Of a DNA stretch of 64,000 nt, positions 1,388-3,986 are shown in pieces; position 1 is the first letter of the stretch; every line of letters starts with the position of its first letter. The stretch spans positions 1 to 64,000 of the forward strand of contig JAGOLH010000005.1 in assembly GCA_017994175.1 (NCBI GenBank), in the 5' to 3' direction. The notes below the pieces were generated by a model. It was not told the origin of the DNA. It saw only the letters and a list, made by a program, of their open reading frames with translations, and ran no database searches. The translations under genes and the position numbers were made by a program. This DNA is from Bacteroidales bacterium. GTDB taxonomy: Bacteria; Bacteroidota; Bacteroidia; Bacteroidales; ML635J-15.

Positions 1388-1822
1388 CTACCACGTTAAA
1401 ACTATTGTTGGGTAATGAACTTCTAAATATTCAATTTTAACTTTATTTGTATAAATTTTATTTTTAAAATAATTGTCTAATACTTCCTTATAATTGTTAT
1501 TATTGACTAAAAATTCATTTAAAACAATTAAGAATTTAACACTAATTAGTTTTTTATTTTCAGCATTAAAATAGTAAGATTCGGTAATAGTATAAATGGT
1601 ATCTGATTTAACGTCTTTTATTTCAGTATAAACGATTTGTTTTGAATCGGATAATTCATAATCATAAAATCCGTACGCTTTATTTTTAAATTCTCCTAAA
1701 TCCATGCCTACAAAAAATTCATTTGAAACAAATCCCACATAGTTTTTTTTACTACTTGAGCAGGCAAAAAATAAAATGCTAATTATTATAGCACTACTGA
1801 ACAACTCTTGCTTTTTCAACAT
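1388..1822 (-). CDS. Lipoprotein, probable immunity protein for the RHS toxin
   Basis: A 144-aa protein with a signal peptide and lipobox (ILFFAC, Cys at residue 21) followed by SSSKK, so it should be anchored in the cell envelope. The mature part has a charged, beta-rich look (YTITESYYF, VKIEYLEVHYPTIVL). I do not recognise a named family. Its ATG at 1822 lies inside the end of the RHS gene (29-bp overlap), which suggests translational coupling and the usual toxin-then-immunity order of RHS loci. An envelope-anchored immunity protein would fit a toxin that attacks the cell wall, as the RHS tip domain suggests. The immunity role is inferred from position, not from homology. Confidence 0.55.
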   Translation of the reverse strand: MLKKQELFSSAIIISILFFACSSSKKNYVGFVSNEFFVGMDLGEFKNKAYGFYDYELSDSKQIVYTEIKDVKSDTIYTITESYYFNAENKKLISVKFLIVLNEFLVNNNNYKEVLDNYFKNKIYTNKVKIEYLEVHYPTIVLTW

Positions 1823-3029
1823 TATTTCTTTTTTCTACTTGTATTTGTACTGTTTTTATCCCATTTGTATTGTTTTTCACTTCTATGATTTGGTTTATTG
1901 CATCATTATAAGATTCATTTGAAGTTTTATTCGATTGATACATTTTGGCGCGTGTAACCATTTCTGCAAAAGATTTAGTTTTGTATATTTGGTTCTTAGG
2001 AATAAACCCAAAGCATCCATATGAACCTGCTAGTTTATTTTTAGTGCCGTTATTATAATAACCACCTATATGGAACATTACCCCATTTGCTATTCCTAAG
2101 TTTTCTCTAGCATCATCAATTGGTTCCCCATTCAAATAAGTATTCATATCTTTTGTAAATGGCTCTGCTTCAAGATTTGCATTTCCTTGTCTTCTTAAAG
2201 CATAAGCCGAAAACCCAGAAGGGTAGTTTAATGGAACTGTTCCATATAAATTTTTATTTCCATCTTTTGGTTCAAATGCCCTATTAACTAAATGTGTTCC
2301 TTCTGAATTTGTACCTCTAGAATACCAAGCATCTCTAGTTACTCCAAAATGAGCAATTTCTTTACTCGGATTCTGGGCATCAATCAAGATTACATCATAA
2401 ACAGGCACAGTAATTTCTGTAACACCTAATTGATCCCCATAAATATGTTGAGAGGTATATCCAATTATATTATCTGTTATTAATAATTTTGCCTCCAACC
2501 CGTCCAAATCAATTGCTATTATTGGTCTATTACTCGCATACTGGTATGCCGAAAGTTCCGGGTACTTCTCATTTAGAGGGTCCACCGAAATAAACCTTGC
2601 TATCCACGCCGCATAATACCTTGCTCCATAGTAGTAAAGACCAGTTTCTTCGTCGCGTTCTTTACCAACGTATTTATACCTTTTCAGCGATACATCAACT
2701 TCGTTTCTTCCACTGCGGTAACTTGTCGTTCCAAACGGATGGTATTCCTCGTAGCTTATTATTGCAGCGCTTGCGTCAAGCTCCAAACAAGCAGAACCAA
2801 GGTGGTTAGAATACTGATAACGTACTGTTTCAACCGGAGTTGTTAATGTTGTTCCATTTTCGACAGTTAGAGTGTCAATTATTGCAAAACAGTCACGGTC
2901 ATCCATTATGTGAACGGTTTCCCGTTCTTTATCGAGGCTGTTGCTGATGTATTTGCGGTAAACTTCGTAACCGCCGCCGGAATAGCTTCCAGAATAGGGC
3001 AGGGGCGATATAGTTGGGTTGCGGTGCAA
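1794..3029 (-). CDS. 5'-truncated RHS repeat protein with L,D-transpeptidase-like C-terminal toxin domain
   Basis: Residues 18-180 are the end of an RHS core: ETVHIMDDRD, then GKERDEETGLYYYGARYY (122-139), FISVDPL and the closing DLDGLEA near 180. After this hyperconserved boundary comes a unique tip domain (181-411), as in polymorphic RHS toxins. The tip holds H320-I-G-G and G335-S-Y-G-C339, spaced like the His and Cys of L,D-transpeptidase-fold enzymes and the Tlde1/DUF2778 effectors, so a peptidoglycan-modifying activity is likely but unproven. The gene lacks the long YD-repeat shell, signal sequence and N-terminal part of a complete RHS protein. The best start is TTG at 3029, with an in-frame stop 21 bp further upstream next to palindromic repeats. 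It is probably a displaced tip cassette or a decayed gene. The lipoprotein at 1388-1822 overlaps its end. Confidence 0.7.
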   Translation of the reverse strand: MHRNPTISPLPYSGSYSGGGYEVYRKYISNSLDKERETVHIMDDRDCFAIIDTLTVENGTTLTTPVETVRYQYSNHLGSACLELDASAAIISYEEYHPFGTTSYRSGRNEVDVSLKRYKYVGKERDEETGLYYYGARYYAAWIARFISVDPLNEKYPELSAYQYASNRPIIAIDLDGLEAKLLITDNIIGYTSQHIYGDQLGVTEITVPVYDVILIDAQNPSKEIAHFGVTRDAWYSRGTNSEGTHLVNRAFEPKDGNKNLYGTVPLNYPSGFSAYALRRQGNANLEAEPFTKDMNTYLNGEPIDDARENLGIANGVMFHIGGYYNNGTKNKLAGSYGCFGFIPKNQIYKTKSFAEMVTRAKMYQSNKTSNESYNDAINQIIEVKNNTNGIKTVQIQVEKRNNVEKARVVQ

Positions 3030-3105
3030 AGCCTGATTGTTAGTTTTTCAAAATTACACAATTTTAATTCTGTTACGCCGAAATCTTTCCTCTTTTTCCC
3101 TCTCC

Positions 3106-3133
3106 ATCCGAGCCACTCGGAGAGGACTCGGAT
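3106..3133. repeat. Palindromic repeat, copy C
   Basis: ATCCGAGCC-ACTCGGAGAG-GACTCGGAT, near-perfect arms of 9 bp with an internal CCGAG/CTCGG repetition. It is followed by GTAACCGAATT, as in copy D. Confidence 0.8.
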
Positions 3134-3161
3134 GTAACCGAATTTCATTTCCATTTAAGTA

Positions 3162-3191: not shown

Positions 3192-3262
3192 GAGAGGTGC
3201 GTAGTTTCCTATTTAAAAAGTGTTTTAATAGAAAATCTTGTTAGTGTAACAACCTCCTCTCC

Positions 3263-3290
3263 ATCCGAGTCACTCGAAGAGGACTCTGAT
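3263..3290. repeat. Palindromic repeat, copy D
   Basis: ATCCGAGTC-N10-GACTCTGAT. It is the second member of the tandem pair with copy C, offset by 157 bp, with the same flanks (CTCTCC before, GTAACCGAATT after). Confidence 0.8.
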
Positions 3291-3311
3291 GTAACCGAAT
3301 TCCACTAAGTA

Positions 3312-3720: not shown

Positions 3721-3897
3721 TTAATACTCATTTAATAGTCTACAGATGGCACACCATCAAAATTTTCTTTTAACCCGTTGTGCATTTAGGTCAAATTTAG
3801 TTTAATTTTATTAATGGCACGGATAAAAAGGAATTTATTGAGGAATTGAATATTAGTTAAGGAGGGAATTTTTGCAAGGATTCGGGTTTCCCCTTCC

Positions 3898-3924
3898 ATC
3901 CGAATCACTCGGAGAGGATTCGGA
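3898..3924. repeat. Palindromic repeat, copy E
   Basis: ATCCGAATC-ACTCGGAGAG-GATTCGGA. Relative to copy C, A replaces G in the left arm and T replaces C in the right arm, again keeping the pairing. The flank GTAGTTTCC...ATAAAGTG is shared with the end of the module at 3201-3222. Confidence 0.8.
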
Positions 3925-3986
3925 GTGGGAGGCGAGTAGTTTCCAAATTTATAAAGTGCCATATGCAATAGCGCAGATACGCACAA

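Follow-up and report, generated by a model that had tools for sequence, protein, structure and literature searches.

What does a short RHS gene encode when its 3' end is overlapped by a lipoprotein gene, and do the two genes form a toxin-immunity pair? Such a couple of genes is found on the minus strand of the window, that is, the whole stretch of 64,000 nucleotides of Bacteroidales DNA that was analysed. The answer that we favour, and consider reasonably likely, is that it is an orphan RHS polymorphic toxin cassette whose tip, a predicted enzyme of the Cys/His/Ser L,D-transpeptidase type, would be delivered to the periplasm and blocked there by the lipoprotein. The region would thus be made up of the last part of an RHS core, a C-terminal toxin domain and an immunity gene. 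To judge from its relatives, the complete toxin would enter the periplasm of a neighbouring Gram-negative cell by means of an RHS or T6SS vehicle, where the tip would cut or exchange the stem peptides of peptidoglycan; the lipoprotein, anchored in the periplasm of the producer, would bind the tip and block it. The features concerned are the following:

1388..1822, minus strand: lipoprotein gene (144 aa; lipobox FFAC, Cys21), predicted to encode the cognate immunity protein; relatives share its position and type
1794..1822, minus strand: overlap of the tip and lipoprotein frames, exactly 29 nt; similar overlaps in relatives
1794..3029, minus strand: orphan RHS tip gene (411 aa), 5'-truncated, with a TTG start within the RHS region
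1797..2489, minus strand: C-terminal tip domain (residues 181-411), predicted L,D-transpeptidase-like toxin, from a family of 20 tips, an AlphaFold2 model and a YkuD profile match
2013..2015, minus strand: Cys339 of S-x-G-C-F, predicted nucleophile, kept in 19/20 tips
2070..2072, minus strand: His320 of H-x-G-G, predicted catalytic residue, invariant in 20/20 tips
2496..2744, minus strand: RHS repeat-associated core domain (residues 96-178; TIGR03696, E=1.7e-21)

The 411-residue ORF begins with an RHS-core fragment that ends in DLDGLEA and continues into a tip of 231 residues, so that the core lies ahead of a variable C-terminal region. The tip carries H320-x-G-G followed by S336-x-G-C339, with the spacing H-x-G-G-x12-S-x-G-C. 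The gene is 5'-truncated, since in-frame stops are present just upstream of the TTG and the encoded part starts inside the RHS repeats; the N-terminal delivery part is missing from this copy. The overlapping gene starts with a lipoprotein signal peptide, MLKKQELFSSAIIISILFFAC-SSS, in which Cys21 follows ISILFFA. The first-pass annotation had already described a truncated RHS gene with a unique tip after DLDGLEA, the same His and Cys residues and a 29-bp overlap with the lipoprotein gene, and this layout was confirmed.

Searched by itself, the tip gives no significant match in Pfam, NCBIfam, PHROGs, PADLOC or PDB sequences, and single-sequence searches with it found nothing in the genome collection, the viral collection or the phage records. 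HMMER matches to capsid P3_C, gelsolin and agarase were rejected as chance. Relatives were found by other routes. The search of the order Bacteroidales gave L002, a tip 50% identical (E=2e-56); the remaining matches of that search, with E values of 0.03-1, were rejected, and so was L056, a long ORF of outer-membrane type. A tblastn search of plasmids gave an RHS protein of Prevotella nigrescens with a related tip (E=4e-8). A profile built from these two tips and that of the window led to ten loci in the genome collection, among them Prevotella pallens, Flavobacterium, Chryseobacterium and Paraburkholderia hiiakae, and further tips were added by searching two Flavobacteriia genera. The resulting set comprises 20 aligned tips, of about 215-240 aa, from Bacteroidota and Paraburkholderia. 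H-x-G-G and the Ser are invariant (20/20), the Cys is kept in 19/20 and the Gly before it in 18/20. As judged from this alignment, the H-x-G-G...S-x-G-C motif is beyond chance, and the tip belongs to a real family outside the coverage of Pfam and NCBIfam. The exception at the Cys position is the L104 tip, in which S-L-A-Y-F replaces S-x-G-C-F, i.e. Tyr stands for Cys, and which keeps its lipoprotein partner. The L090 tip ORF, which has S-L-A-C-F in place of S-x-G-C-F, also keeps its lipoprotein partner.

The fold and chemistry of the tip are predicted from models and profiles. The tips of the window (pLDDT 80.6, pTM 0.83) and of Flavobacterium cucumis (pLDDT 87.9, pTM 0.87) were modelled with AlphaFold2, and both models consist mostly of beta structure, with a single long helix towards the end. 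The His closes a strand, and after the Cys the chain continues with a short strand, then a helix and then the final strand, which is the order of elements in YkuD domains. HHalign comparison of the tip family with 15 small YkuD domains gave P=0.0036-0.0041, in a single chosen comparison with an HHalign probability of only ~9%; the alignment at P=0.0036 spans 74 columns and brings His and Cys into register. The reversed control gave 0.44 and 0/200 column shuffles scored as high. About 80 residues at the start of the tip and ~50 residues of YkuD stayed unaligned. In Foldseek searches of PDB and BFVD, neither tip model had a match at E<=0.001. Among the 50 PDB matches listed in a second search, the L,D-carboxypeptidase Csd6 is the only one with a TM-score >0.3 (TM 0.34, 206 columns, E=4.5); the top BFVD match, a tape measure protein (TM 0.30), is not significant. 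Sequence searches of the tips against L,D-transpeptidases gave no significant match in Pfam, NCBIfam or PDB, none to YkuD (PF03734) above the curated cut-off, and none to Tlde1_dom (PF10908, formerly DUF2778) for any family tip scanned. A weak YkuD match of one A2 member (E=0.074) was discarded since, by elimination, it goes back to the truncated sequence of L038. The profile match and the order of elements thus point, weakly, to an L,D-transpeptidase-like enzyme, which is the most likely reading of the tip. The first-pass annotation had proposed this enzyme class from the His and Cys spacing, to be checked by profile search against YkuD and DUF2778 and by similarity of fold. Its idea keeps the in-register alignment and the element order in its favour, while the Pfam profiles and the structural search did not match.

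Alternatively, the tip could be a toxin that acts in the periplasm and is countered by the lipoprotein, yet a cysteine enzyme with another fold (a peptidase, a transglutaminase-like enzyme or an acyltransferase, for instance), in which H...SxGC arose by convergence. The lack of any significant structural or Pfam match to an L,D-transpeptidase is in line with this, and so is the fact that the N-terminal ~90 residues of the tip match a protein of T6SS clusters (hhalign P=3.8e-10) rather than YkuD. However, the motif runs from the His to Ser-x-Gly-Cys, a helix and a final strand come after it, and the alignment with YkuD is in register. In papain-type and NlpC/P60 enzymes the Cys usually precedes the His, which also counts against another fold. 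We therefore consider this explanation unlikely.

The relatives of the tip indicate how it could be delivered. Related tips are the C-terminal domains of RHS proteins in P. nigrescens, P. pallens, F. cucumis and Bacteroidales MAGs (RHS-borne tips: the window, L031, L035, L036, L041, L104 and others). In L037 the tip is fused to a DUF4280 protein (E=2.7e-18). In L039 and L040 it is a separate gene directly after VgrG, as confirmed by Pfam, and the same position is seen in L103, L105, L107 and L108, where VgrG was judged from VgrG-like sequence; the L039 cluster also holds an Hcp/TssD gene (E=1.7e-49). This spread of one tip family over RHS, DUF4280 and VgrG contexts is typical of a polymorphic effector domain.

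The T6SS-cluster protein mentioned above, of ~238 aa, is encoded in Flavobacteriia T6SS clusters (L043, L044, L046, L055, L091-L101, L109-L129), often just upstream of a gp25/TssE-like gene. It shares homology with the N-half of the toxin tips over its own N-terminal part but carries neither the HxGG nor the SxGC motif, and the one representative scanned had no Pfam match. The tips might form a distinct enzyme or fold class whose N-terminal half is common with this T6SS subtype iii protein, a view that we hold as doubtful. If it is true, the toxin and a part of the machine would be of one origin and the N-half may serve loading onto the spike. The link to the T6SSiii cluster protein offers a lead on the loading of such effectors.

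With respect to the lipoprotein, in 12 Bacteroidota loci the tip gene is followed by a gene for a lipoprotein of about 135-159 aa; the rate of lipoboxes among non-overlapping ORFs of such loci is 25/142. Most of these genes, with their starts as called, overlap the 3' end of the toxin gene by 4-53 nt, and some of the overlaps would be shorter with other starts. Ten of the lipoproteins belong to a single family (E 1e-18 to 6e-4 in leave-one-out tests, 0.13-0.5 for the best decoys), which coincides with one toxin clade. Six partners of another type, proteins of 80-109 aa with two hydrophobic segments whose loop would face the periplasm by the positive-inside rule, coincide with a second toxin clade, which holds Paraburkholderia together with four loci from Flavobacteriia. 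A single change per partner type suffices on the toxin tree. The window and L032 make up a third lineage, whose placement is weak, and the lipoproteins of the window, L032 and L041 have no recognisable similarity to the ten-member family. Behind the tip of L032/L002 lies the broken start of a lipoprotein, which is itself followed by several diverged tandem copies. The partner lipoproteins have no Pfam match to any immunity family, and no relatives of the window lipoprotein were found in plasmids or viral contigs.

The co-segregation of partner type with toxin clade is the best evidence for cognate toxin-immunity pairs acting in the periplasm. Because lipoprotein and two-TM partners recur and co-segregate in this way, a periplasm-acting toxin with an envelope-facing immunity protein is very likely. 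The pairing of a tip toxin with a lipoprotein immunity protein, suggested in the first-pass annotation together with a search for their co-occurrence in other genomes, is strongly supported by that recurrence. That the downstream protein is instead an accessory secreted lipoprotein or a chaperone is very improbable: the sequence differences of the window, L032 and L041 lipoproteins from the ten-member family would suit it, but the partner switches type with the toxin clade while remaining envelope-facing, adjacent and mostly overlapping, and diverged tandem copies such as those after the L002/L032 tip are expected of immunity genes.

Similar toxins have been described. Tox-LD-peptidase was listed in 2012 on RHS proteins, from Bacteroidetes among others, with Imm16 and Imm57 as immunity proteins (Zhang et al. 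2012, PMC3482391). It shares with the present tips the C-terminal position on RHS proteins, the conserved H, S and C, the occurrence in Bacteroidetes, the predicted peptidoglycan target and the fact that some partners are secreted or TM proteins; it differs in those immunity families, and the present tip is unmatched by Pfam YkuD or Tlde1_dom. Tlde1/Tldi1 is a studied T6SS effector pair (PF10908; Lorente Cobo et al. 2022, PMC9638812) that is alike in being a predicted periplasmic L,D-transpeptidase/carboxypeptidase-type effector with a His/Ser/Cys motif and an adjacent immunity gene. Csd6, a structural comparator in that work, is also the best by TM-score here among the matches listed. However, the present tips have no sequence match to Tlde1, are larger, carry H-x-G-G and are linked to RHS, DUF4280 or VgrG in Bacteroidota, and their partners are lipoproteins or two-TM proteins whereas Tldi1a is described with a Sec signal (PMC9638812). 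An RHS protein of another Bacteroidota genome (L087:889-1866) bears a Tlde1/YkuD-like tip with a Tlde1_dom match under the curated cut-off (E=4e-4), a match that the present tip does not have.

Compared with the L,D-transpeptidase catalytic domain itself (PF03734), the tip shows the weak in-register profile match and a similar order of elements around His and Cys, but no significant Pfam match; its first third is unaligned and its context is that of a toxin, not of a housekeeping enzyme. Imm65, which is paired with Tox-JAB-1, is the only lipoprotein immunity protein in the 2012 collection (PMC3482391). It resembles the present partners as a lipobox-bearing protein beside a Bacteroidetes RHS toxin; its toxin is of another class, and the present lipoproteins match no Pfam immunity family. 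The first-pass annotation had called this kind of toxin with lipoprotein immunity little described. RHS-borne L,D-peptidase toxins have in fact been known since 2012, Bacteroidetes included. In the freely accessible papers searched, no description was found either of lipoprotein immunity to an L,D-transpeptidase-like toxin or of the present tip sequence family. The tips add a family of T6SS/RHS effectors, unannotated and spread across phyla, that are predicted to target the cell wall, a candidate class of lipoprotein immunity for them, and testable toxin-immunity pairs in Bacteroidota.

The state of the window copy is a separate matter. It is probably a reserve or relic cassette and not a working weapon, because the N-terminal delivery part is missing and no T6SS sheath gene was detected in the assembly: no match to VipB/TssC was found in its 129 contigs, a fragmentation that makes the absence weak. 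T6SS delivery in this host was considered and is unsupported for the same reason. There is no YkuD match in the genome either. A more radical possibility is a dead fragment, in which a leftover RHS tip and an unrelated lipoprotein gene lie at a rearranged contig edge and have no function now. The truncated ORF with its upstream stops, the end of the contig at base 1 of the window and the lack of a similar full-length RHS in the assembly (the other RHS sequences are distant fragments, the best 41-48%), together with the missing sheath gene, would agree with it. Nevertheless, both frames are intact and overlap like those of active-looking relatives, orphan tip/immunity cassettes are normal in RHS systems, and absences from such an assembly weigh little, so that we regard a dead fragment as quite improbable.

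The same genome holds a second orphan RHS tip (L134:3626-5079, contig C125 of G000), which has a HELAH metallopeptidase-like motif and is followed by a signal-peptide protein that resembles another ORF upstream in the same stretch. This second tip fits a genome that keeps tip/immunity cassettes. Beside the window cassette, two more short lipoprotein-like ORFs (588-1133 and 102-401, the latter on the minus strand) have no Pfam match and are possible orphan immunity genes. A tandem pair of 58-nt repeats, 97% identical, lies at 1260-1376, just downstream of the lipoprotein gene. Finally, a partly palindromic 49-nt repeat (CCTCTCCATCCGAGTCACTCGGAGAGGACTCGGAT...) is present between small genes at 531-579, 1142-1190, 3099-3147, 3256-3304 and 3891-3939, where it possibly marks cassette boundaries.
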